Shown here: positions 7,062 through 57,654 of the stretch, piece by piece
How the letters are laid out: the number at the start of each line of letters is the position of its first letter
How positions within the stretch are numbered: position 1 is the first letter of the stretch
From: Brevibacillus sedimenti
Lineage (GTDB): Bacteria; Bacillota; Bacilli; Brevibacillales; Brevibacillaceae
DNA length: 64,000 nucleotides
Assembly (NCBI RefSeq): GCF_020923495.1
Contig: NZ_CP064048.1
Coordinates: 1,877,501 to 1,941,500, forward strand
Reading direction: 5' to 3'
Program-made: the position numbers and the translations under genes
Notes under the pieces: model-generated
Told to the model about the DNA's origin: nothing
The model's database searches: none
The model's input: only the letters and a program-made list of their open reading frames with translations

Positions 7062-10000
7062 ATGGGCAAGAAAACGCCATTGTTTCAGAAACTGAGATAC
7101 TTCTCCAAACGGGAACAATATTCCGAAGGCTGGAGTGAAATGTCCCCCGAGAACCGGGACTGGGAAGATATGTACCGCAGGCGGTGGCAGCACGACAAGG
7201 TCGTACGTTCGACCCATGGCGTGAATTGCACCGGTTCCTGCAGCTGGCAAATATTCGTCAAAGACTGCATTGTCACGTGGGAAACGCAACATACGGACTA
7301 TCCCTCGACCGGTCCGGACATGCCGGATTTTGAACCGCGCGGATGTCCGAGGGGAGCCAGCTTCTCCTGGTATTTGTACAGCCCGCTGCGCGTCAAGTAC
7401 CCCTACATACGAGGCGCGCTCCTCGACTTGTGGAAACAAGCGAAAAACAAAGAGAAAGACCCGGTGCGGGCATGGGCCAGCATTGTGGAAGATCCAAAGA
7501 AGGCGAAGCGCTATAAATCGGCCCGCGGAAAAGGCGGGTTTGTCCGCGTCTCCTGGGATGAGGTGACGGAAATCATCTCGGCGTCGATGATCCATACGAT
7601 CAAAAAGTACGGACCGGATCGGATCATCGGGTTTTCGCCGATTCCGGCGATGTCCATGGTCAGCTATGCGGCTGGCTCCCGCTTCCTTTCGCTCATAGGT
7701 GCACCGCTGCTCAGCTTCTACGACTGGTACGCCGATTTGCCGCCGGCATCGCCGCAAATTTGGGGAGATCAGACGGATGTTCCGGAAAGCAGCGATTGGT
7801 TCAATTCCGGCTATATTCTCGTATGGGGGTCCAATCTGCCGATGACCCGGACGCCGGACGCCCATTTTCTTGCTGAGGCCCGCTATCGCGGCACGAAAGT
7901 CGTCTCCATCAGTCCCGATTATGCGGAGTTCGTCAAATTGGCCGATACGTGGATGTCGGTCAAGCCCGGGACGGACGGTGCGCTCGCCATGGCGATGGGG
8001 CACGTGATCCTGAAGGAATTTTATGTCGAGAATCAGACTGATTATTTTCTGCAGTATGCCAAACAATATACGGATTTCCCCAACCTGGTGCTGCTTACGG
8101 AAAACAACGGCGCGTATACGGCCGACCGTTTCCTGCTGGCGGAGGACCTGGGAGCTGCGGGAAACAACGTTCAATGGAAAACGGTGGTGTACGACGACAA
8201 CAGCGGGTCTTTCGCCGTTCCCAACGGCAGCCTCGGTTTCCGCTGGGGCGAAGAGGGCCGATGGAATTTACGCATGGAAGACGCGAACGGAACCGCGATC
8301 GACCCGCGCATTTCCCTGCTGGGTGTCCATGATGAAGTGCTGACGATTCAGCTCCCGTATTTTGACGACGACGGCCGGCACGTGATGGAGCGAGCCGTAC
8401 CGGTCAAGCGAATTGAACAGGGCGGCAAAACGCTGTTCGTGACGTCCGTCTGCGACCTCGTGCTGGCCAAGTACGGGATCGACCGGAACCTGGGGGACTC
8501 GTGCCCGAAGAGCTACGATGACGACCAACCGTTCACGCCGGCCTGGCAGGAGAAAATTACGGGCGTGGACCGCCATACTGTCGTGCAAATCGCCCGCGAG
8601 TTTGCGCAAAACGCGGTGGAGACGAAGGGACGGTCGATGATTATTTTGGGCGCCGGGATTAACCATTGGTACAATTCCGACGTCATCTACCGGGCGATTA
8701 TCAACCTCGTGCTGATGACCGGCTGTCAGGGCGTCAACGGCGGTGGCTGGGCGCACTACGTCGGCCAGGAGAAGCTGCGCCCCGCGGAAGGCTGGCAGAC
8801 GATCGCCTTTGCCAGGGACTGGTCCTTGCCGCCGCGTCTGCAAAACGGGACGTCCTTTTTCTACTTCGCGACCGACCAATGGCGCTATGAAGATACTCAG
8901 ATCGAGAGTCTGGTGTCACCGCTGGCGGGGAAAGCCAGATACGAGCACAGCGCCGACTATAACGTGCTGGCAGTAAGGCTTGGTTGGCTGCCATCCTATC
9001 CCCAGTTCAGCCGCAATTCGCTGGAACTGTACCGGGATGCAGAGCGAGCGGGTGCCCGCACCAGGGAAGAGATCGCCGCTTATGTCGCCGAACAGCTGAA
9101 AAATCGAACCTTGAAGTTTTCCATCGAGAATCCGGATGACCCGGCTAATTTTCCGCGTGTCCTGTTTGTATGGAGAGCCAACCTGATTTCCAGTTCCGGC
9201 AAAGGGCACGAATATTTTCTCAAACATTTGCTGGGCACCTCAAACGGGCTGCTGAACGAGGACAACATCGGGCTGCGTCCCCAGGAAATCGAGTGGAAGG
9301 AGAATGCGCCGGAAGGCAAACTGGATTTGCTCGTCAACCTTGATTTCCGGATGGCTGGCACGGCGCTGTATTCGGACATCGTGCTGCCTGCCGCGACCTG
9401 GTATGAGAAGAGCGATTTGAGCAGCACCGACATGCATCCGTTTATTCATCCGTTCAATCCGGCCGTGTCCCCCCAATGGGAATCGCGTTCGGACTGGGAG
9501 ACGTTCAAGGAACTGGCGCGCGCTTTTTCGACGATGGCCGCCCGGCAGTTCGACGGGCCGCAAAACGATATCGTCACCACGCCGCTCCTTCACGATTCGC
9601 CGGATGAACTGGCGCAGCCGTACGGGCTCGTGCGTGATTGGAGCAAGGGACAATGCGAGCCGGTTCCGGGGAAAACGATGCCGCACGTTCACGTCGTCGA
9701 GCGGGATTATGCGTCCGTGTACGAAAAAATGATCTCCCTCGGCCCGCTGGTAGAAAACAAACCGTTTGGCATAAAAGGCATTGTCTGGTCCGCGTCGGAC
9801 GAATACGACCGATTAAAGCGCGTGCTTGGCGTCCGGAGAGGAAACGGGGTTGCGACGGGATGTCCCGATTTGAGTACGGACCGGAATGTGGCCGAGGCCA
9901 TTCTCACGCTTTCTTCGACCGCAAACGGAAAAATGGCGGTCAAGGCATGGGAAGCGCTGGAGAAGAAAACGGCGCTGCACCTGAAAGATTTGGCGGAAGA

Positions 10001-10745
10001 ACGGGAGGAAGAATGTTTCACGTTTGAGGAGATCACCGCAAGGCCGAAAACGGTCATCACCTCCCCCGCGTTCAGCGGTTCGGAAAAAGGCGGACGCCGC
10101 TATTCGCCGTTCACCACCAATGTGGAGCGGCTTATTCCGTGGCGAACGTTAACCGGGAGACAGCAGTTTTACATCGACCATGAAATGCTGCGCGAATTCG
10201 GCGAGACATTGGCGACATTCAAGCCGACCCTCAAACATGCGCCGTTTCATCCAAACAGCAAGCGGCCGGTCAAGGACGGCAAGGAAATTGTCCTGAACTA
10301 CCTGACGCCGCATAACAAATGGTCTGTTCACAGCATGTACTACGACGCGCTGCCGATGCTGACGCTGTTCCGCGGGGGGCCGACGATCTGGTTGAACCAC
10401 GAGGATGCGACCGAAACGCAGATCGCCGACAACGACTGGATCGAATGCTTCAACCGCAACGGCGTCGTCGTGGCCCGCGCCGTCGTGACACATCGCATTC
10501 CACGCGGGATGGCGTTCATGTACCATGCTCAGGACCGCCATATCCACGTTCCGGGAACGCCGATTACAGAGACCCGCGGCGGTACGCACAACAGCCCGAC
10601 CCGCGTCCATGTCAAGCCGACGCATATGATCGGCGGTTACGCCCAACTCAGTTACGGGTTCAACTATTACGGACCAACAGGCAACCAACGGGATTTGAAC
10701 GTCATCATCCGGAAATTGCAGGAGGTGGATTGGCTTGAACATTAA
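7062..10745 (+). CDS. narG: Respiratory nitrate reductase alpha subunit
   Basis: The catalytic molybdenum subunit of the membrane-bound quinol-nitrate oxidoreductase, reducing nitrate to nitrite on the cytoplasmic side. It is 1227 residues, normal for NarG. Near the N-terminus HGVNCTGSCSW (His52, Cys56, Cys60) and the later EPRGCPRGASFSW provide the FS0 4Fe-4S ligands. DQTDVPESSDWFNS near residue 239 holds the Asp that binds molybdenum. The C-terminus has the molybdopterin-binding HNSPTRVHVKPTHMIGGY. I chose ATG 7062, behind GGGAGG and downstream of the predicted transcription start; an earlier in-frame ATG at 6984 lies upstream of that start. It overlaps narH by 11 nt. Confidence 0.97.
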   Translation: MGKKTPLFQKLRYFSKREQYSEGWSEMSPENRDWEDMYRRRWQHDKVVRSTHGVNCTGSCSWQIFVKDCIVTWETQHTDYPSTGPDMPDFEPRGCPRGASFSWYLYSPLRVKYPYIRGALLDLWKQAKNKEKDPVRAWASIVEDPKKAKRYKSARGKGGFVRVSWDEVTEIISASMIHTIKKYGPDRIIGFSPIPAMSMVSYAAGSRFLSLIGAPLLSFYDWYADLPPASPQIWGDQTDVPESSDWFNSGYILVWGSNLPMTRTPDAHFLAEARYRGTKVVSISPDYAEFVKLADTWMSVKPGTDGALAMAMGHVILKEFYVENQTDYFLQYAKQYTDFPNLVLLTENNGAYTADRFLLAEDLGAAGNNVQWKTVVYDDNSGSFAVPNGSLGFRWGEEGRWNLRMEDANGTAIDPRISLLGVHDEVLTIQLPYFDDDGRHVMERAVPVKRIEQGGKTLFVTSVCDLVLAKYGIDRNLGDSCPKSYDDDQPFTPAWQEKITGVDRHTVVQIAREFAQNAVETKGRSMIILGAGINHWYNSDVIYRAIINLVLMTGCQGVNGGGWAHYVGQEKLRPAEGWQTIAFARDWSLPPRLQNGTSFFYFATDQWRYEDTQIESLVSPLAGKARYEHSADYNVLAVRLGWLPSYPQFSRNSLELYRDAERAGARTREEIAAYVAEQLKNRTLKFSIENPDDPANFPRVLFVWRANLISSSGKGHEYFLKHLLGTSNGLLNEDNIGLRPQEIEWKENAPEGKLDLLVNLDFRMAGTALYSDIVLPAATWYEKSDLSSTDMHPFIHPFNPAVSPQWESRSDWETFKELARAFSTMAARQFDGPQNDIVTTPLLHDSPDELAQPYGLVRDWSKGQCEPVPGKTMPHVHVVERDYASVYEKMISLGPLVENKPFGIKGIVWSASDEYDRLKRVLGVRRGNGVATGCPDLSTDRNVAEAILTLSSTANGKMAVKAWEALEKKTALHLKDLAEEREEECFTFEEITARPKTVITSPAFSGSEKGGRRYSPFTTNVERLIPWRTLTGRQQFYIDHEMLREFGETLATFKPTLKHAPFHPNSKRPVKDGKEIVLNYLTPHNKWSVHSMYYDALPMLTLFRGGPTIWLNHEDATETQIADNDWIECFNRNGVVVARAVVTHRIPRGMAFMYHAQDRHIHVPGTPITETRGGTHNSPTRVHVKPTHMIGGYAQLSYGFNYYGPTGNQRDLNVIIRKLQEVDWLEH

Positions 10746-40515: not shown

Positions 40516-40539
40516 ATGGCTGGCGGAGGCCAGCTGAAA

Positions 40540-40569
40540 ACGGGCGGCCTGTCTTTGCGGGCCGCCCGT
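40540..40569 (+). terminator. GC-rich hairpin, possible terminator
   Basis: Stem ACGGGCGGCC/GGCCGCCCGT with a 10-nt loop but no T-run, between the ferritin-like gene and the response regulator. Confidence 0.5.
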
Positions 40570-40662
40570 GATCGTGTTCAGAAATTGTTGAGATCGAATG
40601 CCTATGATAATAGAATGTGCGGCTTGTGTCGGATTCGGGTTGAAAAAGCGAGGTGTGAAACT

Positions 40663-41793
40663 CTGAAAGCCGTATTGGTTGACGATGAACCTCTGGCTTT
40701 GTACCACCTGGAAACACTGCTGCGGGAATGCGGAGGTCTGGAAATCGTCGGGCGATATCAAAATCCCCGCCGCGCTTTGGATGAGCTTTCGCAGGTAAAG
40801 CCCGACGTCATCTTTCTAGATGTGGAGATGCCCGAGTTGAACGGCATCGAAACGGCGGAACAGGTGCTCAGACTCTCGCCTGAAACGGATCTTGTCTTTG
40901 TAACGGCCTATGATGAGTACGCGGTCAAGGCGTTTGAGCTCAACGCACTGGACTACGTGCTAAAACCGGTTCAGCGCGACCGCCTGATCAAAACGGTGCA
41001 GCGGCTGATTGACAGGCGGTATGAGACGCACGTCGTTTCGCTCGCAGGACAAGCCATCATGATCCGCTGCTTTCAGTCCCTGCAGATCGAGATTCCGCCG
41101 CGCGGACCGGAACCCATCCGCTGGCGGACGGCCAAAGCGCAGGAACTGTTTGCGTACCTGGTTCATCGGCGGGGCCAGCCCGTTCGCAAAGATGCGCTGC
41201 TGGAATTGTTCTGGCCGGATGCGGACCACAAAAAAGGTTTTGCCCTGCTGTACACAACCATCTACCAGATCAGAAAAACATTGAAAGAGCTCAACGTCGG
41301 CATTCACATCAGCAACTGCGACGACGGCTATCTGCTGGACATGAAACACGTCAGGGTGGATGTGGATGAATGGGAGCGCGGCATAAGGATGTGGTCCCCC
41401 GTTACGCGGGAAAGACTGTCCGAACACTTGCGCTTGCTTGAATTGTACCGCGGAGATTACCTGGACGACTACGACTACATATGGGCGGAAAGCGAGCGGC
41501 AGCGGCTGCGGACGCACTGGTTTTACCACGCGAATCATGTAGCCGGCTATCTGGAGTCTGTTGGCGAATACGCCCGAGCGCTGGCCGTCTATCACCGCAT
41601 CCAGCGCTTTCACCCGCATGTGGAAGAGACGTACGTAAAGCTGATGAAGCTGTATGACAGACTAGGCGACCGCAATGCCGTGGTGAGAGAGTACATGAAC
41701 CTGAACAGGATGTTGAGCGAAGAGTACGGCGTCGCCCCCCACAAGGCCGTTCGGGAGTGGTATCTGCGTTGGAAGAAAACGCAAAGCAGGTAG
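40663..41793 (+). CDS. Response regulator with SARP/BTAD output
   Basis: A transcription regulator of 376 residues: receiver domain (residues 1-120, acid pocket Asp7/Asp8, phosphoacceptor Asp53 in VIFLDVEMPELNG, Lys in LKPVQRD), an OmpR/SARP-type winged helix (RTAKAQELFAYLVHRRGQPV, FWPDADHKKGFALLYTTIYQ), and a bacterial transcriptional activation domain with TPR-like helices. Translation probably starts at CTG 40663: it gives the usual start MKAVLVDDEP and has GAGGTG 7 nt upstream. The in-frame ATG at 40615 has no ribosome binding site and overlaps a GATAAT/TATGAT promoter element. No sensor kinase is next to it. Confidence 0.88.
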   Translation: MKAVLVDDEPLALYHLETLLRECGGLEIVGRYQNPRRALDELSQVKPDVIFLDVEMPELNGIETAEQVLRLSPETDLVFVTAYDEYAVKAFELNALDYVLKPVQRDRLIKTVQRLIDRRYETHVVSLAGQAIMIRCFQSLQIEIPPRGPEPIRWRTAKAQELFAYLVHRRGQPVRKDALLELFWPDADHKKGFALLYTTIYQIRKTLKELNVGIHISNCDDGYLLDMKHVRVDVDEWERGIRMWSPVTRERLSEHLRLLELYRGDYLDDYDYIWAESERQRLRTHWFYHANHVAGYLESVGEYARALAVYHRIQRFHPHVEETYVKLMKLYDRLGDRNAVVREYMNLNRMLSEEYGVAPHKAVREWYLRWKKTQSR

Positions 41794-41885
41794 TCTCTTC
41801 TCGGCCCCGGATTGGCTCGAAAGTCATGTGCGTCATGTCATGCTTTGCGAGCGGCGAAATATGGTAAGAAGGAGGGAATATACTA

Positions 41886-41924
41886 GTGCGGCACCAGGAC
41901 AGAAGAAATGGGGAGTACCAGTGA
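41886..41924 (+). CDS. Putative 12-codon leader ORF
   Basis: GTG 41886 lies 9 nt after the strong site AAGGAGGG (41869-41876) and opens a 12-codon frame, MRHQDRRNGEYQ, whose TGA overlaps the GTG start of the CheY-like gene (GTGA). The CheY-like gene itself has only a weak, close site. This is the arrangement of translational coupling by a leader peptide. The peptide may have no function of its own. Confidence 0.45.
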   Translation: MRHQDRRNGEYQ

Positions 41925-42286
41925 AAACGACCATGATTGTCGATGACACGGCGTTGACCAGGGGAATCCTTCGCGACATGCTCGAATCGCTCGGGCTGAA
42001 GGTGGTGGTGGAGACGGAGTCGGGAGAGGAGGCGGTCAAACAATTTATGCTGTTCCGTCCCGACCTGGTCGCCGTGGATGTATCTACACCCGCCATGGAC
42101 GAATTGGCGGTGGTGAAAAAGATCAGGAAAATCGACGGAAAGGCCAAGATCATCGTCTGTTCAGCCGTTGTGCAGCGGGATGCCATCATGCGGACGATCG
42201 ACGCGGGCGCGTCCGACTTTCTGGCCAAACCGCTGCAGAAAGACCGGGTGGCATGGGCCATTCAACACCTCAAAGAAATCGGATAA
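41921..42286 (+). CDS. CheY-like single-domain response regulator
   Basis: A stand-alone receiver domain of 121 residues. The acid pocket is Asp8/Asp9 (VDDTALTR), the phosphoacceptor is Asp53 in LVAVDVSTPAMDE, the Thr/Ser switch is in IIVCSAVVQRD and the Lys is in FLAKPLQKD. It has no output domain, so it acts by binding a partner. I chose GTG 41921, in frame and at the family start; ATG 41861 has no site in front. It sits between the SARP regulator and the Pel operon and might connect signalling to exopolysaccharide, but this is only proximity. Confidence 0.85.
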   Translation: MKTTMIVDDTALTRGILRDMLESLGLKVVVETESGEEAVKQFMLFRPDLVAVDVSTPAMDELAVVKKIRKIDGKAKIIVCSAVVQRDAIMRTIDAGASDFLAKPLQKDRVAWAIQHLKEIG

Positions 42287-42765: not shown

Positions 42766-44940
42766 GTGAACGTTCTCGTAACGGGAGGATATGGCTTCAT
42801 CGGGTCCTCGGTGGTCGAACGTTTTCACAAAGAGGGTCATCGGGTGTACATTATCGACAACCTGTCTACGGGCAGGCGGGAACGCGTGACCGTCCCCCAC
42901 AAAGCGTACATCTACAGCGTGGATGACCGGGCCTGCGAAGAAGTATTTCGCAGCGTGGGATTCGACGTCGTGGTTCACCTGGCGGCCCATACGAGCGTCA
43001 TGGACTCACTGGAACGCCCCTGCCACGATGCGGAGGCGAACATCCTCGGGCTGCTCAACATGCTGAATTGCGCGCGGCTGCACGGCGTCAAAAAGTTTAT
43101 TTTCGCTTCGTCCGCGGCCGTCTACGGCGATACCGCCCAGCTTCCGATCCGTGAAGAGACAGCCTGCCATCCGCTGTCGCCCTACGGGATGAACAAGCGG
43201 CTGGGAGAGATGTACTGCGAGAAATGGCAGGAGTTGTACAAGCTCGATACCTTGTGCCTGCGCTTCTCCAACGTATACGGCCCCCGTCAGAGCAGCTCAG
43301 GGGAAGGGAGCGTCATTTCCGCCTTTCTGAACCAGGCACGGGAAGGCAAACCGCTGTATGTCTTTGGCGACGGAACGCAGACGCGCGATTTCATCTACGT
43401 CGACGATGTGGCCGATGCCATTTACCGCGGCGCCACGAGCAATGTGACGGGCATCTACAACGTGTCGACGGGCGTGGAAACCAGTGTGAACGAGCTGATC
43501 GAGCTGGTCCGAACGCTGGTTCCGATAAATGATGTCCAGTACCTCGACAGCAGGCCGGGCGAGATCACCCGCTCCTTGCTGGACAACAGCCGGCTGAAGC
43601 ACGACCTGGACTGGGTGCCGCTCTATTCGCTGCAGGAGGGGATTGCCAAAACCTACGAATGGATGCTGCGGCAGGAGGCGGTTGCGGCCCGTGAAGAGGC
43701 AGCACCCGCAAGAGAGACGCCCAGATGGTGGCGGATCGTCCGGCCGTATGTGGAAAACGGGCTGGCCTTTGCCGCAGTCGTCCTGCTGTCCCGCGACCAG
43801 AGCGGTCTTTTATACGAATATGGCATTGATTTTCGGCTGTTGTACATTCTGCTGATCGGGCTGCTCTACGGCTCGCGCCAGTCGTTTCTCTCCGCTGCGG
43901 CGGTGATCAGCCTGTATGTGGCCGACAACCTGGCCAACGGGCGCGCCTGGGGCTCGCTGTTGTTTGACCCGGAAACGCTGTTTGTCGCCGCAGTCTACCT
44001 GTTTTTCGGCCTGTCGGTCGGGTTTGTGCGGGACAAATACAAAAAAGAGCTGGCGTTTGCCAAAAACGAGCTGGCGGTGGAAGCGCAGCGGTATAAGCTG
44101 CTGATGGACGTGTACAAGGACACGCGCAGCGTCAAGGAGTCCCTGCAGCGACAGGTGCTGACCAACAGGGACAGCCTGGGCCGCATCCATGCGCTCGTGA
44201 CCGAACTGGAGAGCCTGGAGCCGGAACAGGTGGTCAGCGCAGCGGTGAATGTGATGGAAGACCTGATGGAGTCCAGGAAAATCTCGATCTATGCCGTATC
44301 GGCGACCGGCTACTTGCGGCTGCTGTTGCAGTCCAACGACGACGAACTGCGCGCCCCCCGTTCGCTGCACCTGAGAGACGTGCCGGAACTCTCCGAGGTC
44401 GTTACGTCGCAGCGCTTGTGGGTGAACAAAAATCTGGTGCCGGAGCTGCCGATGCTGGCAGCGCCGGTGGTTCACCAGGGAGAGACGGTCGCGCTGGTCT
44501 GCGTGCACGAGCAGGGGTTTGAACAGTTTACCCTGTACCACGAAAACCTGTTTCGGATTGCCGTAGACATGATTTCCCGCTCGCTCTCCCGTGCCTTTAT
44601 CTACGTGGCCGCCACGCGCAGCGAACGCTTCGTGGAGGAGACCCCGATTTTGCAGGAGGGAGCCTTTTTGGAAGTGTTGCGCAGCAAACAGGCGGCCAAG
44701 AAACGGTACCAGGCCGCGTACACCTTGCTGCACGTGGAAACCTCCGAAAACGGCTTCAAGGAAACGGCTGCGCGTCTTGCCCACCTGCTGCGCGACACGG
44801 ATTATATCGGGCTGTTGCGGGGACAGCTGGTGCTGCTCCTGTCCAACTCCGGGCCGGAAGAGGCCGGGGCGGCAATGGAGCGGCTGCAAAAATACGGCGT
44901 GGCAACGCGCCTGGTGAGCGAGGATACGGTCTATGCTTAA
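42766..44940 (+). CDS. Fusion of UDP-sugar epimerase and PelD-like c-di-GMP receptor
   Basis: A 724-residue protein. Residues 1 to about 310 are an extended SDR sugar-nucleotide epimerase: LVTGGYGFIGSSVVERF binds NAD and YGMNKRLGEMYC holds the catalytic Tyr/Lys. After a linker come about four membrane helices (GLAFAAVVLL to LFVAAVYLFFGLSVGFV), a coiled segment, a GAF domain (about 470-620) and a C-terminal degenerate GGDEF fold. The latter has the I-site-like RDTD at 676-679 and RGQLV where GGDEF would be, as in PelD, the c-di-GMP receptor of Pel secretion. Pseudomonas protegens PelX is a UDP-GlcNAc C4-epimerase; here a similar activity appears joined to PelD. The start is GTG 42766 behind GGAGGTG. 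It overlaps pelE by 8 nt. Confidence 0.85.
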   Translation: MNVLVTGGYGFIGSSVVERFHKEGHRVYIIDNLSTGRRERVTVPHKAYIYSVDDRACEEVFRSVGFDVVVHLAAHTSVMDSLERPCHDAEANILGLLNMLNCARLHGVKKFIFASSAAVYGDTAQLPIREETACHPLSPYGMNKRLGEMYCEKWQELYKLDTLCLRFSNVYGPRQSSSGEGSVISAFLNQAREGKPLYVFGDGTQTRDFIYVDDVADAIYRGATSNVTGIYNVSTGVETSVNELIELVRTLVPINDVQYLDSRPGEITRSLLDNSRLKHDLDWVPLYSLQEGIAKTYEWMLRQEAVAAREEAAPARETPRWWRIVRPYVENGLAFAAVVLLSRDQSGLLYEYGIDFRLLYILLIGLLYGSRQSFLSAAAVISLYVADNLANGRAWGSLLFDPETLFVAAVYLFFGLSVGFVRDKYKKELAFAKNELAVEAQRYKLLMDVYKDTRSVKESLQRQVLTNRDSLGRIHALVTELESLEPEQVVSAAVNVMEDLMESRKISIYAVSATGYLRLLLQSNDDELRAPRSLHLRDVPELSEVVTSQRLWVNKNLVPELPMLAAPVVHQGETVALVCVHEQGFEQFTLYHENLFRIAVDMISRSLSRAFIYVAATRSERFVEETPILQEGAFLEVLRSKQAAKKRYQAAYTLLHVETSENGFKETAARLAHLLRDTDYIGLLRGQLVLLLSNSGPEEAGAAMERLQKYGVATRLVSEDTVYA

Positions 44941-45823
44941 CGGAGCAATTGCGGCTTATTACGTGCTGACGGCGGTGTATCTGGTGATCCTGTTTCGCCG
45001 CCGGGAACCGATGCGCGGCGGCAGGGCAGCGCTGGCCTGCCTGCTCCCGTTTGCCGGGTTGCCGCTGGTGTTGGTCGCCAGCAGGGCGGGGGCCAAGAGT
45101 GCGTCCGCCAATCCGGACCGATTCGCCGACGTGGTGGGACTGAAGGCGGATTCGGGAGGCGTCCTGGTCAAAGTGGATCTGGAGAAGGAGACGTCGATTG
45201 TGCCGATTGAAGAGGCACTGGTGCTCAATGATCACACCACCCGCCGCCGGATCGTGATGGACGCTCTCAAGGAGGAAACGCTGGACCTCGTCAGCTACCT
45301 CGCCAAGGCCGCCCGTAACGATGACAGTGAAACCGCCCACTACGCCGTCACCGCCATTGTGGAAATGAAACGGGGGATGATGGCCGAACTGCAGCGGTGG
45401 TCGGCCGAACGGGAGCGTTCCCCTGATGATCCGACCGTGTTGGCCGGGTATGCCAACGCGTTGAAGCGGTATATCGGCAGCGGGCTGATGGATGCCGAGA
45501 TGGAGCGCACCTACCGCCTGCAGCAGGCGGATGTACTGGAGCGTTTGATCCGACGTGAGGACTGCGGGGAAGAGGCGTTTGCCGACAAGGTGGAATGCGA
45601 ACTTCTCCTGCGCCGCTACGACAGGGCAGAAGCAGCCTGCGAGCGGTTTCTCCAGGCTTATCCGCAATCGGAGATGGCTTATTACACGGCGCTGAAACTG
45701 TATTACTCGCTGCGGGCCGTCATGAAGTTTCACGAGACGCTGAACAGGCTGAAAGAATCGTCCATCACCGTGTCGTATCCGACTTTGCAGATTATCCGGT
45801 ACTGGAGCAGGGATTTCGTATGA
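44933..45823 (+). CDS. pelE: PelE-like membrane/TPR protein
   Basis: A 296-residue protein with two N-terminal hydrophobic helices (AIAAYYVLTAVYLVILF and ALACLLPFAGLPLVLVAS) and a helical, TPR-like cytoplasmic part. Size, topology and position directly after the PelD-like gene match PelE of Pel operons, which helps assemble the synthase complex at the membrane. Sequence conservation in PelE is low, so the name rests on context. It overlaps the previous gene by 8 nt and the next by 4 nt (ATGA). Confidence 0.7.
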   Translation: MLNGAIAAYYVLTAVYLVILFRRREPMRGGRAALACLLPFAGLPLVLVASRAGAKSASANPDRFADVVGLKADSGGVLVKVDLEKETSIVPIEEALVLNDHTTRRRIVMDALKEETLDLVSYLAKAARNDDSETAHYAVTAIVEMKRGMMAELQRWSAERERSPDDPTVLAGYANALKRYIGSGLMDAEMERTYRLQQADVLERLIRREDCGEEAFADKVECELLLRRYDRAEAACERFLQAYPQSEMAYYTALKLYYSLRAVMKFHETLNRLKESSITVSYPTLQIIRYWSRDFV

Positions 45824-47655
45824 TAATCAGGACAAAATCGCTCAGACGCATGATTGTGCTGCTCGTCTTCGTACTCCTGCTGACGCTGTTGATGCAGATG
45901 TCCCGTTCAACGCTGGTGATGCGCTGGAATGGGTTCAACGACGGACTTAGTGCCAAGGCCGCGGCCCGCAACGCGCTGACGCCTGCGGAGCTGGCCCGCA
46001 TCGATCAGGAACGGCTGGTCATCCTGGCAGACCCGAATGACGCGATGAGCCAAAAGGTGGCGTATCAGGCGGAACAACTCCTGATCGGGATGAAAAAGCA
46101 GTTTGAGCGGTTGCCTGTGGGAAGCGCCGTGCCTGTTCCAGCGCCCGATGGCGTGATTGTGACCGTGTCCGATTTGACGCGGCTTGCCGGATCGGAATGG
46201 CTGAACGGCTACGTGGCGCGGGGCGGCCGCGTATTGCTGGCGATCGAGCCGGACAACAACGAGGCGTTTTCCGCCATGTACCGCCGGCTGGATATCGTTG
46301 AGATCGGCACGTACGTGGATACCAGCGAGATTCACCTCCACACCAACGTGCTGCTCGGGTTTGCCGACAGCGTGTTTCGCGATCCCGGCCTGCAGAATCA
46401 CGTGCTGCGCGTCAAGCTGGGACAGCGCAGCCGCGTTCACGTCTCGGCGGGGGAACATGTGCCGCTGTTGTGGGAGGCGCCGTATGAAAAGGGAGCCTAC
46501 ATTGTGTTCAACAGCGTGCTGCTGCAGGAGAAGATCAACCGCGGACTGTTTGCGGGCGCCATCGGCGTGCTGCTGCCCGACCTGATCTATCCGGTGCTCA
46601 ACGCCAAACTGATGTTTCTCGACGACTTTCCCGCCCCGTTCCCCCAGGGAACCCATCCCATCATCGACCGGGACTACCGGATGGATTTGCCGCAATTTTT
46701 CAAGAAAGTGTGGTGGCCGGACATGATCCGGCTGGCGCGCAGGCACGATCTGAAGTACACAGGGGCGCTCATCGTCACTTACAGCGACCGGGTTACCCCG
46801 CCGTTTGACTGGGAGAACGAAGCGGACGTCTCCAGCCTGGTGATGTACGGGCGCGAACTGCTGAAGGAAGGGGGAGAAATCGGCATCCACGGCTACAACC
46901 ATCAGTCGCTGACCACCATTCCGCGGTTGTCGCGGGCGTTTGGCTACAACGTGTGGTCGAGCCAGCAGGAGATGAAGGACTCGCTTCGCTCCTTGCGGCA
47001 GTACGTCGAGTCTGTCTTTCCCCACTACCCGCTGCGTACCTACGTGCCGCCGTCCAACGCACTGGATGGTGCGGGGCGGCAGGTGCTGAAACAGGCGTTG
47101 CCCGACCTTGACAACATCTCGTCCCTCTACATCGAAGACCACCAGGATATCTCCTATGTGCAGGAATACAAACTGGCTCCCGACGGCTTGGTGGAGCTGC
47201 CGCGCGTGACGTCCGGGCACTTGATCGATGAGTACGACCGCTGGGCGATGGCCAACGCAGTCACCGCTCATGGCATCTTTTCCCACTTTGTTCACCCGGA
47301 CGACGTGATTGATGAGGAACGGGGCGGCAAAGAAAGCTGGCGCGATCTGTACACGCGCCTGGATGAGTTCCTGGAACTGGTGCAGGACAAATACGGTTGG
47401 CTGCGGCCCATGACCTCGGCAGAGGCGAGCGCTGAGGCAAGGCGTACGCTAGTGAGCCAGCCTGTGTTTGAACGGCGTCCAGATGGCCTAACCGGCTACA
47501 TCAACGGCTTTTCCGGCCCGCAGTACTTTCTGCTGCGGACCGACCGAAACATCGTGCGCACGAAGCAGTGCGAAGTGCGGCGCATCGATCAGGGCGCATT
47601 TCTGGTGCGCGCCGATCAAGAAATCTTTTCAATTGATTGGACGGATAAACCATGA
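45820..47655 (+). CDS. pelA: PelA-type polysaccharide deacetylase
   Basis: A 611-residue protein anchored by one N-terminal helix (MIVLLVFVLLLTLLMQM), with the rest predicted outside the membrane. The deacetylase region shows FLDDFPAPFPQGTHP (Asp268/Asp269), a long GGEIGIHGYNHQS (His357, His361) and SHFVHPDDVID, as expected for the PelA deacetylase domain that makes Pel cationic. The separate hydrolase domain of Pseudomonas PelA is not recognisable, in line with the deacetylase-only form known from Gram-positive Pel clusters. I chose ATG 45820, overlapping pelE by 4 nt. Confidence 0.82.
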   Translation: MIIRTKSLRRMIVLLVFVLLLTLLMQMSRSTLVMRWNGFNDGLSAKAAARNALTPAELARIDQERLVILADPNDAMSQKVAYQAEQLLIGMKKQFERLPVGSAVPVPAPDGVIVTVSDLTRLAGSEWLNGYVARGGRVLLAIEPDNNEAFSAMYRRLDIVEIGTYVDTSEIHLHTNVLLGFADSVFRDPGLQNHVLRVKLGQRSRVHVSAGEHVPLLWEAPYEKGAYIVFNSVLLQEKINRGLFAGAIGVLLPDLIYPVLNAKLMFLDDFPAPFPQGTHPIIDRDYRMDLPQFFKKVWWPDMIRLARRHDLKYTGALIVTYSDRVTPPFDWENEADVSSLVMYGRELLKEGGEIGIHGYNHQSLTTIPRLSRAFGYNVWSSQQEMKDSLRSLRQYVESVFPHYPLRTYVPPSNALDGAGRQVLKQALPDLDNISSLYIEDHQDISYVQEYKLAPDGLVELPRVTSGHLIDEYDRWAMANAVTAHGIFSHFVHPDDVIDEERGGKESWRDLYTRLDEFLELVQDKYGWLRPMTSAEASAEARRTLVSQPVFERRPDGLTGYINGFSGPQYFLLRTDRNIVRTKQCEVRRIDQGAFLVRADQEIFSIDWTDKP

Positions 47656-49103
47656 AAATTTGTATTGTTGCGGAAGGTTCCTATCCGTATGTGACCGGCG
47701 GGGTGTCCAGTTGGATTCATGACCTGATCAACTCCATGCCCCAGCACGAGTTTGTCATATTTGCCATCGGAGCGGAGGAGCGAAACAGGGGGAGATTCTC
47801 CTACCGGCCGCCCGACAATGTATGCGAGGTTCGTGAAGTGTTTCTCGACACCTTTTTGCAGGAAGAAGGCCGCTGGGGCCGCCGGATTGAACTGAGCGGC
47901 AAAGAACGGGACGCCTTGCAGGGGCTGATTGTCGGCGAGCGGGATACCGACTGGGAGACACTGTTTCAGCTGCTGTGCGGCGGGCGCTGGGATGCGTCCA
48001 CGGAATTTTTGATGAGCCAGGATTACTTTGATCTGTTGAGCGATGTGGCACGACAGCGGTACGAGCAGCTTCCGTTTCGGGAGTTGTTCTGGACGGTCCG
48101 TTCCATGCTGCTGCCGCTGATGCAGCTGCTTCGCCACCCGCTTCCCGAGGCGGACCTGTACCACGCCGTCTCGACCGGGTACGCCGGTGTCATCGCCAGT
48201 CTGGGCAAGCACCGCTACGGCCGTCCGATGCTTTTGACCGAGCACGGCATCTATTCCCGCGAGCGGGAGGAGGAGATCATCAAGGCGGACTGGGTCAAAG
48301 GGTATTTCAAAGACTTGTGGATTCGCTATTTTTACGGTCTGGCCCGCTGCGCCTACCAGTATGCCGACCAGGTGGTGACGCTGTTCAACCGAAACCGGGA
48401 GATCGAGATCGAGCTGGGCTGCCCTGAGTCAAAAATCGCGATTATCCCCAACGGCATCAAGGCGGACGAATACGTCGACCTGCCGCGAAAAACGGCGGAC
48501 GACCCGGCCGTTCACATCGGTGCCATCGTGCGAGTGGTGCCGATCAAGGACATCCGGACGATGATCCAGAGCTTCGCTGTGGTCAAGCGGGAAGTGCCGC
48601 AAGCCAGGTTTAGCATCATGGGGCCGTACGACGAGGACCCGGACTACTACCGCGAATGCGTGGAACTGGCGGAAATGCTGGGCGTGCGGGATCTCACATT
48701 CACGGGCAGCGTCGACGTCAAGACTCGCATCGGCAAGCTGGACGTGGTCGTGCTTACCAGCATCAGCGAAGGGCAGCCGCTGGCCGTTCTGGAAGCGATG
48801 GCGGCGGCCAAACCGGTCGTGGCGACCGACGTCGGAAGCTGTCGGGAACTGCTCTACGGCAGCGAGGCGGGCGGGGTGGAAGGCCGCGCCGGGCTGGTCG
48901 TGCCGGTGCTGGACGACAAAGAGATTGCCCGCGCCATCATCACCTTGTGCAATAGCGAATCGCTGCGCCGGGAAATGGGAGAAAACGGACGGCGCCGCGT
49001 CCTGTCGGCGTATACCCACGAGCAGTTCATTTCCCGTTACGAATCGCTGTACGCCTCGCTCGGAAAGGAGGAGAAGACATGGCAGGTATCGGCTTCCAGC
49101 TAA
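47652..49103 (+). CDS. pelF: PelF glycosyltransferase
   Basis: The GT4-family polymerase of Pel, predicted to use UDP-N-acetylhexosamine in the cytoplasm. It is 483 residues. The N-terminus MKICIVAEGSYPYVTGGVSS and the following WIHDLINSMPQHEFVIFAIG are hallmarks of PelF. Donor-site segments are LLTEHGIYSREREEEI, NRNREIEIELGCPESKIAII, RVVPIKDIRTMIQSFAVVK and ISEGQPLAVLEAMAAAKPVV. It overlaps pelA by 4 nt and pelG by 25 nt. Confidence 0.93.
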   Translation: MKICIVAEGSYPYVTGGVSSWIHDLINSMPQHEFVIFAIGAEERNRGRFSYRPPDNVCEVREVFLDTFLQEEGRWGRRIELSGKERDALQGLIVGERDTDWETLFQLLCGGRWDASTEFLMSQDYFDLLSDVARQRYEQLPFRELFWTVRSMLLPLMQLLRHPLPEADLYHAVSTGYAGVIASLGKHRYGRPMLLTEHGIYSREREEEIIKADWVKGYFKDLWIRYFYGLARCAYQYADQVVTLFNRNREIEIELGCPESKIAIIPNGIKADEYVDLPRKTADDPAVHIGAIVRVVPIKDIRTMIQSFAVVKREVPQARFSIMGPYDEDPDYYRECVELAEMLGVRDLTFTGSVDVKTRIGKLDVVVLTSISEGQPLAVLEAMAAAKPVVATDVGSCRELLYGSEAGGVEGRAGLVVPVLDDKEIARAIITLCNSESLRREMGENGRRRVLSAYTHEQFISRYESLYASLGKEEKTWQVSASS

Positions 49104-50494
49104 AGCGGCTGTTTGACCGTGAAGGCCTGTTTGGCCGCGTGCAGGCCATCTCGTACGCTTCGCTGGTGACGGTGGGGCCGATTCTGAGCTGTATGGCGGC
49201 GGTCGCGGCCGTCCATTGGCTGCTCGTCACAGAAATGGCGCCGTATCGGGCCCGGCTGCTGTTTCAGGCGGGAACAGCGTACGTCTTTGCCTTTTCGTTT
49301 ATCGTCGCGGCTCCGTTCTCCATGCTGTTTACCCGGCTTGCGTCCGACCAGCTCTACGATAAACGCTACGACGAACTGCTGCCGACGTTTTATAGAAGCC
49401 TGCAGCTGGCGCTGGGCAGCGCTGCGGTGCCCGCTGCGGCTTTTCTCCTGCTGGCGCCGCTGGAGCTGGCGGAGAAGCTGGTGTTGGTTGTGATGTACAT
49501 GGAGCTGATTGTCATCTGGATGGGCGTGGTGTACGTGTCGGCGATGAAAGCGTACCGCCGGATTGCCGGGGCATTTTTCGCAGGCATGCTGCTGGCGATG
49601 ATTGCGGTCTGGCTGTACGTTCGTCTGGAAGGGGAGCATCTGGCAGCGTGGGGGCTGTTTGCCGGATTGGCCGGCGGATTTTTTGTCACGGCATCGGTAC
49701 TGCTGTGGGAGATTGAGCGTTTCTTTCGCACACCCAAGCCGCTGTATCCGAATGGATTGGTCTCGTATCTGCGCCAGTATCCCTCCCTGTTGGCGATCGG
49801 CCTGTTCACCGCCTTCTCGATGTATGCGCATCAGTTTGCCCAGTGGGTGTTTCACGGCGAGTGGCTGGAGGGGACGTTTCTGCTTGCTCCGGAATACGAT
49901 GTGGCCGTCTACTACGCCGTCCTCTCCGTGCTGCCGACGCTGGTCTGGTTCGTGGTGTCGGTGGAGACGGCATTTTACCCGAAGTATCGCCAGTATTACG
50001 ACGCGATTCTTGGACAGGGAAGCATTATCGAGATCGACCGCGCCCGCCGCGAGATGGAACAGGTGCTGATCGGCGAGATGGCCAAGCTGATGGGGATTCA
50101 ACTCGTCTTTTCGCTGGTGGCTGTAGCCTGCGGCATCCTGTATCTGCCCTACATCGGTTTTACCGCCCAACAGGTGGATACCTTCAACATTTTGGTTATG
50201 TCCTTTTACACGTACATCATGACCAGTGTTTCGCTGTTGCTGTTGCTCTACTTTGATGATCGAAAGGGAGCGCTGGCGCTCTCGGCGATCTTTTTGGCGG
50301 CCAACATAGCAGCTGCCTGGGCCCTGCGCGACATCGAATACCAGGGGCTGTCCCTGTTTGCCGCCTCGTTTCCCGTCCTCATCGCCACTCTGAGCAGGCT
50401 GATATACCGGCTGCGCCGGCTGCACTACGCGACGTTCAGCGCACAGCCGCTGGCATCGCGGGAGCAAGACCGGATGCGCGGCAGGGCAGGGTGA
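49079..50494 (+). CDS. pelG: PelG membrane transporter-like protein
   Basis: A 471-residue integral membrane protein with about 12 helices, the export partner of PelF. The N-terminus MAGIGFQLKRLFDREGLFGR and the following QAISYASLVTVGPILSCM are diagnostic of PelG. It probably forms the membrane passage for the polymer with the PelD- and PelE-like proteins. The start lies inside the end of pelF behind GGAGGAG. The cotH-like gene follows after 22 nt. Confidence 0.92.
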   Translation: MAGIGFQLKRLFDREGLFGRVQAISYASLVTVGPILSCMAAVAAVHWLLVTEMAPYRARLLFQAGTAYVFAFSFIVAAPFSMLFTRLASDQLYDKRYDELLPTFYRSLQLALGSAAVPAAAFLLLAPLELAEKLVLVVMYMELIVIWMGVVYVSAMKAYRRIAGAFFAGMLLAMIAVWLYVRLEGEHLAAWGLFAGLAGGFFVTASVLLWEIERFFRTPKPLYPNGLVSYLRQYPSLLAIGLFTAFSMYAHQFAQWVFHGEWLEGTFLLAPEYDVAVYYAVLSVLPTLVWFVVSVETAFYPKYRQYYDAILGQGSIIEIDRARREMEQVLIGEMAKLMGIQLVFSLVAVACGILYLPYIGFTAQQVDTFNILVMSFYTYIMTSVSLLLLLYFDDRKGALALSAIFLAANIAAAWALRDIEYQGLSLFAASFPVLIATLSRLIYRLRRLHYATFSAQPLASREQDRMRGRAG

Positions 50495-50516: not shown

Positions 50517-52232
50517 ATGAAACAGATATGGAGAAGCGGGTGGCTGGCTGTCTTGCTGGCGATAAGCGTCGCAGCTGGCGGTTGTGCGCCGGACGCAGAT
50601 GTCAGCCAGCCGCAGGTGGAGGGGCCGGTCGTGCCGCCTGCCGTGGAGTACGCGCCCAAATTGCAGGAAAATCGGCTGGTCTACGATAAGGATCAGCCGG
50701 GAAGCGTCGTACACCTGTACATTACCGTGACGGATGACAACCTCAGCGACGAGCGGCCGATGACCTGGGCGGAGTTGAACCGCATCGCCAACGAGAACGA
50801 CAACACGGTCGAGCGAAAACTGAACGTCATCGTGCAGGAAGGGACGGATCAGGGACCACAAAAGGGGATGTTTGGTTACGGAACGAACGAGCCCAACGCT
50901 TCCATCACCCTTCGGGGCAAGTCGTCGATCAAGGCGATGCAGAAGTCGTACAAGATCAGGCTCTTTGACAATGCCGGCTACTGGCGGGATCAGCGGACCA
51001 TCAACCTGAACAAGCACGTGTACGATTTTTCCCGGCTGCGCAACAAACTGAGCTTTGACTACTTCAAGCAGCTGCCGGACATCACCAGCCTGCGCACCCA
51101 GTTCGTTCACCTGCATGTCAGGGATCTCACCAGCGGGCGGGCGCAGGCGCCGTTTGAGGATTACGGCCTGTACACCCAGATTGAACAGCCCAACAAGTCG
51201 TTTCTCCGGACGCACGGGCTGGACCCCTACGGCCATCTGTACAAGGCTACCAACTTTGAGTTTTTCCGCTATCCCGACAAGTTGAAAATGGCGGACGATC
51301 CCACGTACGACAAACAGGCTTTCGAGTCCGTCCTGGAAATCAACGGTTCCAATGACCATGCCAAACTGCTGCGCATGCTGGATGATGTGAATGACATGAC
51401 CAAGGATTTCGACGAAGTCTTTGACCGCCATTTCGACCGCGACAACTTCCTGACCTGGATGGCGGCCAACATCCTGATGGACAATGTTGACACGATGACA
51501 CAAAACTTTTTCCTCTATTCTCCGCTGAACGCGGAAAAATGGTATTTCCTCCCATGGGATTACGACGCGGCGTTTGATTTTTACGGCAGCCCGGCCGGTA
51601 ATCCCAATGAGCGCGCATTGTGGGAGCGGGGGATTCATAACTATTGGGGCAGCGTGCTGGCCAACCGGTTTTTTAAAAATCCGCAAAACGTCGAGCAGCT
51701 TGTGGCCAAAGTGCGCCAACTTCGCACCATCATCAATCCGGAAAACTCGCGGCGCATGATCGAGACGTACAAACCGGTCGTGTCCGCTTTCGTCAGACGC
51801 GAACCGGACATCCGCTACCTGCCGGGGCGGGTGGAGTTGTACGAGCAGGAGCTGGAGCGGATCATCCAAATGCCCGTGAAGAATGAGCAGGCATTCATCG
51901 CCAGCTTGCAGGCACCGATGCCGTATTATCTGGCAGATGTGGAGCAGGCGAACGGAACGCTGACGTTTCGCTGGGGGATGTCGTACGACCTGCAGGGCGA
52001 TGAGCTGACCTACCGCTTCCAGTTGGCGAAAGAGCCGTCGTTTGCCCGCCCGTTGGTGGATCGCGATGGTTTGAAGGGAACCTCGCTCGTGCTGAACGGC
52101 ATCGGCAAGGGCCGTTACTTTTGGCGAGTCACGGTGAAGGACGCGAAGGGGCACGTGATGACGGCCTTTGACAAGTTCTTTGACGAGAACGGCAACGTCT
52201 ATAACGGCGTCCGCGACTTTTACGTGAAATGA
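50517..52232 (+). CDS. CotH-family lipoprotein
   Basis: A 571-residue predicted lipoprotein: the signal peptide ends at the lipobox VAAGGC with Cys23, so it should sit on the outer face of the membrane. The CotH kinase-like region spans about residues 50-440, with LRGKSSIKAMQKSYKIRLFD, NILMDNVDTMTQNFFLYSP and KWYFLPWDYDAAFDFYGSP; CotH proteins include spore-coat protein kinases. The C-terminal 100 residues look like a beta-sandwich domain (YRFQLAKEPSFARPL). It is linked to the Pel genes by tight spacing, and CotH proteins are commonly seen with VTC and DUF4956 genes as here. The role is unknown. Confidence 0.87.
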   Translation: MKQIWRSGWLAVLLAISVAAGGCAPDADVSQPQVEGPVVPPAVEYAPKLQENRLVYDKDQPGSVVHLYITVTDDNLSDERPMTWAELNRIANENDNTVERKLNVIVQEGTDQGPQKGMFGYGTNEPNASITLRGKSSIKAMQKSYKIRLFDNAGYWRDQRTINLNKHVYDFSRLRNKLSFDYFKQLPDITSLRTQFVHLHVRDLTSGRAQAPFEDYGLYTQIEQPNKSFLRTHGLDPYGHLYKATNFEFFRYPDKLKMADDPTYDKQAFESVLEINGSNDHAKLLRMLDDVNDMTKDFDEVFDRHFDRDNFLTWMAANILMDNVDTMTQNFFLYSPLNAEKWYFLPWDYDAAFDFYGSPAGNPNERALWERGIHNYWGSVLANRFFKNPQNVEQLVAKVRQLRTIINPENSRRMIETYKPVVSAFVRREPDIRYLPGRVELYEQELERIIQMPVKNEQAFIASLQAPMPYYLADVEQANGTLTFRWGMSYDLQGDELTYRFQLAKEPSFARPLVDRDGLKGTSLVLNGIGKGRYFWRVTVKDAKGHVMTAFDKFFDENGNVYNGVRDFYVK

Positions 52233-53777: not shown

Positions 53778-54121
53778 TGCTTACCTCCTTCCTTGCACCA
53801 GCGAAGGAGCCGACAGATGCATAGCATACCACGGCATTGAAGAGGAAGAGTAAGAGAGGGCGCTGACGTTCAGAGAGCCTGCCTGCAAGCTGAGAGGGGG
53901 GCCGTCATCTCTCTTTGAAGCCGCCTTGGAGCTCCTGCTTTTGAAATTGCGAGTAGAAAGCAGCGGATCAGCCCCCGTTATCGGGTGAAAGTCTGTGCAG
54001 GACTTTCCGAGTCTGCTTTTCGTGAGGAGAGCAGAAAAGCTGAGTGGTACCGCGATTCCGTCGCCTCAGCAATCGAATCTTTGGGACGAATGTTCCGGGT
54101 TCGGTTGCGGGGCGATTTTTT
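53778..54121 (+). promoter_or_regulatory. T-box leader, probably alanine-specific
   Basis: The AGTA box at 53849-53852 and the helix AAGAGAG/CTCTCTT lead to TGAA followed by the likely specifier codon GCC (Ala) at 53920-53922. The T-box core GAGTGGTACCGCG is at 54042-54054. Its antiterminator (GCTGAG/CTCAGC) competes with a strong terminator: TCGCCTC and GCAATCGAA (from 54061) pair with TTCGGTTGC and GGGGCGA, ending in six Ts at 54121. Uncharged tRNA should allow read-through into alaR-alaT. A CCG (Pro) reading one base later is less likely. Confidence 0.9.
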
Positions 54122-57428: not shown

Positions 57429-57458
57429 CTGTTACATCCCCACCAAGCCTTCGTTGAA

Positions 57459-57636
57459 GATAGCACATCACGTTTGCCCGGCTCGCAAACGTGACAGTTC
57501 TGCCCCTTTCGAGTACAGCCCCAGCCCGTGTGCCCAGAGAATGCACAGCGGACTTCGGCGGCTTTTCCCTCCTCTGGAGTCATCGATCTTCTCTGGATCT
57601 CGTGCCAGAATCATATAAAAGCCGCGACCTCTATCC
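57459..57636 (-). promoter_or_regulatory. Lysine riboswitch (L-box)
   Basis: On the minus strand the aptamer begins GATAGAGGTCGCGG and ends with CTATC, which closes P1. Conserved L-box blocks follow in order: AGAGGTCGCGG, GAGGAGGGAAAAGCCGCCGAA, then ACGGGCTGGGGCTGT and GGCAGAACTGTCA. Lysine binding should favour the downstream terminator and switch off lysP. Confidence 0.92.
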
Positions 57637-57654
57637 CCATCGCATGTGATGAGG

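Follow-up and report, generated by a model that had tools for sequence, protein, structure and literature searches.

An epimerase domain fused to the c-di-GMP receptor PelD in a pel operon of Brevibacillus sedimenti: the known Brevibacillus form, its relatives and its possible role in Pel precursor supply

Pel is a polymer of GalN and GalNAc whose synthesis needs a UDP-GlcNAc C4-epimerase, which in P. protegens is PelX (PMC9135694). Synthesis is activated when c-di-GMP binds PelD (PMC7112168, PMC12345266). For B. cereus PelD, this binding, with a KD of 103 nM, and its requirement for biofilm formation have both been demonstrated, and mutation of the I-site residues equivalent to those discussed below abolishes binding (PMC7112168). 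According to Whitfield et al. (2020, PLoS Pathog; PMC7112168), the PelD of every Brevibacillus strain that they identified has an SDR domain at its N terminus, for which they predicted epimerase function, and a degenerate SDR domain occurs on the PelD of streptococci, clostridia and actinobacteria. In the same work S. thermophilus JIM8232, lacking the SDR part, still made a pel-dependent biofilm. A published scheme of four PelD classes, based on SDR, degenerate SDR and GGDEF, is cited in PMC12345266.

The window analyzed here, a stretch of 64,000 nucleotides of B. sedimenti DNA, carries a pel operon whose first gene encodes an SDR-PelD fusion. The operon is of the Gram-positive type, and its PelD has the form published earlier for Brevibacillus. 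It shares with the published protein the genus, the order SDR-TM-GAF-degenerate GGDEF, a predicted functional epimerase and the gene order pelD-E-A(DA)-F-G. We found no essential difference between the two; the window copy comes from a B. thermoruber-like species, and its nearest named relative, in Brevibacillus thermoruber 423, is 92% identical. By its published description, the SDR-PelD class combines an N-terminal SDR carrying the consensus catalytic residues with a degenerate GGDEF that keeps the I-site, and both are present here. The fusion had thus been described before, in this very genus, and the statement of a preliminary description of this DNA that PelD and the epimerase are separate in described Pel systems was mistaken; the novelty that it claimed falls to PMC7112168. 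The gene and its parts are as follows.

42766..44940, plus strand: SDR-PelD fusion gene, pelD with an N-terminal epimerase (open frame, RBS, homologues)
42766..43680, plus strand: extended-SDR UDP-hexose 4-epimerase domain, residues 1-305 (PF01370, PDB and fold matches)
42784..42804, plus strand: NAD-binding motif GGYGFIG, residues 7-13 (G7, G8, G10 and G13 invariant in 23 fused homologues)
43111..43197, plus strand: catalytic S116, Y140 and K144 (YxxxK; Y140 and K144 invariant and S116 nearly so in 23 homologues)
43573..43575, plus strand: S270, position of the epimerase substrate-gate residue (invariant in 23 homologues, aligned to the Ser of PelX 6wjb)
43723..44040, plus strand: four predicted transmembrane helices, residues ~320-425 (hydropathy, AlphaFold)
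44215..44613, plus strand: GAF domain, residues ~484-616 (weak PF01590; Foldseek PelD and GAF matches)
44656..44937, plus strand: degenerate GGDEF domain, residues ~631-724 (Foldseek matches to PelD and diguanylate cyclase 4zmu; RGQLV)
44791..44802, plus strand: predicted c-di-GMP I-site RDTD, R676 and D679 (invariant in 23 homologues)
44881..44883, plus strand: R706, predicted as the third residue to contact c-di-GMP and corresponding to B. cereus R395 (invariant in 23 homologues)

In the open-frame listing the gene runs intact from GTG 42766 to TAA 44940 (724 aa), and its start codon is preceded by a ribosome-binding sequence (GGAGGTG) at about 8 nucleotides. The preliminary description was right about the single 724-residue frame, about its division into an SDR epimerase and a PelD that keeps a c-di-GMP I-site in an inactive GGDEF, and about the positions of RDTD (676-679) and RGQLV (685-689). 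The AlphaFold model shows, in order, an SDR fold, four hydrophobic helices (320-425), a long stalk helix, and GAF and GGDEF-like domains.

The SDR half is matched by the Pfam Epimerase profile PF01370 over residues 3-233 (E=1.4e-63), and the Gly-rich NAD motif and S/YxxxK signature of extended SDR enzymes are present as GGYGFIG and S116, Y140 and K144. Its best relative in the PDB is the UDP-Glc 4-epimerase 4zrm (E=4.5e-65; TMt 0.90 in the fold comparison), and PelX (6wjb, E=5.9e-52) is among the closest solved structures. The GalE equivalog TIGR01179 scores 188.3 bits, under its curated cut-off of 262.3 bits, which makes this half a short epimerase of the TM0509/PelX type rather than a canonical GalE. 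P. protegens PelX (6wj9, 6wjb), a UDP-GlcNAc C4-epimerase, is likewise an extended SDR of about 310 aa, with 36% identity in the structure alignment and Ser at the position of S270, but it is free-standing whereas the window epimerase is fused. We take S270 to correspond to the gate position Y299 of E. coli GalE, where the residue is a tyrosine. Judged from sequence, the serine is compatible with an N-acetylated substrate, which it permits rather than proves; since the T. maritima UDP-Glc 4-epimerase has Ser there as well, the sequence would fit either GlcNAc or Glc. The SDR half is under purifying selection to a degree similar to that of the PelD half, with dN/dS values of 0.28 and 0.23, respectively, for the closest pair, and of 0.11 and 0.06-0.07 in another Brevibacillus group.

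The C-terminal half was less easily recognized by profiles. The PelD half gave a weak GAF match (PF01590, residues 487-606, E=0.0015) below the Pfam cut-off. Sequence and profile searches of this part against the PDB returned weak chance matches and no PelD, so that a fold search was needed. With the full-length model, the best 50 matches listed were all SDR epimerases and dehydratases, and the PelD half (319-724) was consequently modelled apart (mean pLDDT 80.6, pTM 0.56). Its top six PDB matches in Foldseek were P. aeruginosa PelD crystal structures, 4etz, 4eu0, 4dn0, 4euv and 4etx leading with E-values of 8.6e-9 to 2.3e-7, which bears out the predicted PelD fold; the domains sit differently relative to one another, which keeps the global TM-scores low (0.28-0.40). 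P. aeruginosa PelD (4dmz, 4dn0, 4etx, 4etz, 4euv), a c-di-GMP receptor through the I-site of its degenerate GGDEF, is the best fold match but has no SDR domain and shares about 16-17% identity. Hydropathy, AlphaFold and Foldseek together give the arrangement that defines PelD: four transmembrane helices followed by a GAF and a degenerate GGDEF domain. The catalytic GGDEF motif is lost (RGQLV at 685-689), and the I-site RxxD and the downstream arginine are kept, R676, D679 and R706 being invariant in 23 fused homologues. The PelD of B. cereus ATCC 10987 has the same TM-GAF-degenerate GGDEF order, and its R363, D366 and R395 correspond to R676, D679 and R706; the third residue lies 30 positions past R676 here and 32 past its counterpart in B. 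cereus. Unlike the window protein, B. cereus PelD has no SDR, its epimerase being a separate, divergent, neighbouring galE (BCE_5588), and its core pel operon has no cotH. The class IV PelD of S. intermedius (PMC12345266) shares SDR-TM-GAF with the window protein, but its SDR is degenerate and its GGDEF is absent.

The fused gene is the first of an operon with overlapping frames in the order pelD-E-A(DA)-F-G-cotH. The first five are, in order, the genes of the Gram-positive pelDEADAFG operon, with pelE recognized by weak TPR matches and by a position that is conserved at every fused locus examined.

44933..45823, plus strand: pelE-like gene (weak TPR matches; overlaps the pelD stop)
45820..47655, plus strand: pelA(DA)-like gene, DUF2194 and polysaccharide deacetylase (PF09960 E=8.6e-139, PF01522)
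47652..49103, plus strand: pelF, GT4 polymerase (NF038011 PelF, 380.9 bits against a cut-off of 100)
49079..50494, plus strand: pelG, exporter (PF16933 PelG, E=6.6e-112)
50517..52232, plus strand: cotH-like kinase gene with a lipoprotein-type signal, AAGGC (PF08757 CotH, E=6.6e-61)

The CotH-like kinase is probably extracytoplasmic and tied to the pel operon; it also carries a WDYDAAFD motif. Two response-regulator genes, one with a BTAD/trans_reg_C output domain, lie just upstream (40516-42286) and are possible regulators of the operon. No match to a sigma-70-like promoter was found in the 480 bp 5' of the SDR-PelD gene, and a scan of the whole window for c-di-GMP (GEMM) riboswitches gave no hit at the gathering score. 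Elsewhere the window contains the end of an rRNA operon (23S to position 1200) and, directly after it, 13 clustered tRNA genes (together 1-2496), a T-box leader (53828-54071) and a lysine riboswitch (57453-57641, minus strand). Production of c-di-GMP is likely, since other genes of this genome encode at least five clear GGDEF domains. A canonical galE, separate from the fusion, adjoins a galT-like gene (L003, TIGR01179 454 bits), and with this gene present we rejected a role of the fused SDR as sole epimerase of the cell.

The fusion is widespread and ancient. Its PelD half was found in 18 of 40 family genomes (the order-level sample consists of the same 40). Judged by open frames of 708-774 aa, 17 of these 18 have intact fusions, and the fusion in the remaining genome, G008, is out of frame past about residue 468. 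The window PelD half is about 65% identical to its counterparts in other genera of the family versus 37-40% to a second Brevibacillus lineage. In the class sample, 48 of 400 genomes matched: the full-length, high-scoring matches were all fusions of about 700-770 aa, and lower scores went to stand-alone PelDs of about 410-490 aa, which are more distant. Both forms were present among the 13 matching genomes of 399 in the phylum sample. A search of plasmids gave no match. According to the residue table, the SDR motifs are intact in Brevibacillus, Paenibacillus, Cohnella and a few other Bacilli, and are broken in Bacilli of family f17, in clostridia-type genomes (f87, f140) and in a form without GGDEF (L078). 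The I-site is kept in nearly all distant homologues that have an intact GGDEF region. From these sequences, the SDR appears to decay outside Paenibacillaceae and Brevibacillus while the I-site persists. Some single genomes hold unusual copies. A 465-aa form (L073, genome G194) consists of the SDR and the last 120-150 or so residues of PelD, as if the membrane and GAF parts had been deleted, and may reflect either a genuine deletion or faulty assembly. Frame breaks within fused pelD occur in Cohnella xylanilytica (L018), in G008 (L074) and in G616 (L061/L076), possibly as sequencing errors or as phase-variable or decaying copies. One contig (C14 of genome G105) carries two pel loci about 0.4 Mb apart, one with a stand-alone PelD and the other with a degenerate-SDR PelD (L091, L110).

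In the PelD tree, 20 stand-alone PelDs, from 17 Bacilli loci and three other genomes, make up a single branch (100/99) that includes none of the fused sequences; two further rows labelled as separate are the frame-broken fusion L018 and L078, a divergent form on a long branch. The simplest reading is that the state changed once between fused and stand-alone, in a direction that the unrooted tree does not set. The window sequence groups in the SDR tree with L012, L096, L098, L099 and L097, the same neighbours as in the PelD tree, which indicates that the two halves travelled together. Stand-alone epimerases adjoining pel group with canonical GalE and not with the fused SDR. The gene neighbourhoods also differ: cotH follows pelG at 30 of 33 distinct fused loci and at none of the 17 with a stand-alone PelD, one of the 33 fused loci has a separate SDR gene within the 20 kb retrieved, and a separate galE-like gene is found near pel at 7 of the 17 stand-alone loci, counts that are not phylogenetically independent and in which the stand-alone set represents two families. 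Such a pattern would be expected if the fused epimerase had replaced a neighbouring one. At one locus (L107, genome G219) a separate SDR gene (7276-8257) lies directly upstream of SDR-PelD (8279-10472) in the same direction, placing two epimerase-like domains next to each other. At four SDR-PelD loci (L103:14865-17981, L016:15361-18477, L105 and L106) pelG and cotH are one gene of about 1040 aa (about 1042 aa in L105 and L106), encoding the exporter PelG, a lipoprotein-like stretch and then the CotH kinase domain; the passages of the Pel literature consulted do not mention this fusion.

We favour, with a probability of roughly 0.7, the explanation that SDR-PelD is a membrane-tethered epimerase that makes UDP-GalNAc beside PelF, while c-di-GMP at R676, D679 and R706 activates PelF. 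It builds on the domains, the intact catalytic and cofactor residues, the operon partners and the conservation documented here by sequence and predicted structure. The resemblance of the SDR to PelX, the near absence of separate epimerases from fused loci, the purifying selection on the SDR half and the GGDEF domains elsewhere in the genome also speak for it. An NAD-dependent UDP-sugar 4-epimerase would be tethered to the membrane-bound receptor PelD and would convert UDP-GlcNAc to UDP-GalNAc next to the polymerase as a local precursor supply, and c-di-GMP would act on PelF by analogy with B. cereus and P. aeruginosa. Supply of precursor on the Pel scaffold, as the preliminary description had proposed, is a reasonable inference, and channelling of UDP-GalNAc to PelF is plausible. 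The separate galE, which could supply UDP-GalNAc, counts against this explanation. It also speaks for an SDR whose main part in the Pel complex is structural or one of dimerisation, with residual or dispensable catalysis: SDR epimerases form dimers, and dimerisation at the N terminus could fix the geometry of the PelD dimer. A structural role is also favoured by the SDRs that are kept yet catalytically broken in f17 Bacilli, clostridia-type f87 and the GGDEF-less L078, by the published degenerate SDRs of streptococci, clostridia and actinobacteria, and by the biofilm of S. thermophilus JIM8232 (PMC7112168). Since the SDR is dead in related fusions, the domain must have some further, non-catalytic use there. 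Purely structural use, however, would not need the conservation of all cofactor and catalytic residues in Brevibacillus, Paenibacillus and Cohnella, and for the window protein we consider this role unlikely.

The tether of a local epimerase would co-localise two steps and does not imply allosteric coupling between them. That c-di-GMP binding switches the epimerase allosterically, putting precursor synthesis and polymerisation at the membrane under a common gate, is suggested by the physical linkage and by the joint conservation of I-site and active site in the window clade. Yet along the chain four membrane helices and a long stalk separate the SDR from the GGDEF, and lineages with a dead SDR still conserve the I-site, which makes such control less necessary; this proposal of the preliminary description found no support and appears very improbable. 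Isolated frame breaks in the gene family (L018 and the G008 and G616 loci) might recall an artefact in which two adjacent genes were joined by a sequencing error or by chance read-through. Against this, dozens of genomes share the full-length architecture, and the intact fusions of many species have their junction at the same place. These homologues rule out that the window gene is the product of a frameshift or of misassembly, and an accidental joining of two genes is scarcely credible.

The survey matches the published picture and extends it with the apparent single change of state, the decay of the SDR against the persistence of the I-site, and the cotH and galE pattern. The published observation that some Gram-positive bacteria tether a likely Pel precursor enzyme to the c-di-GMP receptor of the Pel synthase is thereby confirmed and extended. 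The natural pairs of PelD with an active SDR, with a dead SDR, and with no SDR but a galE are suited to testing whether the tether serves catalysis or assembly.
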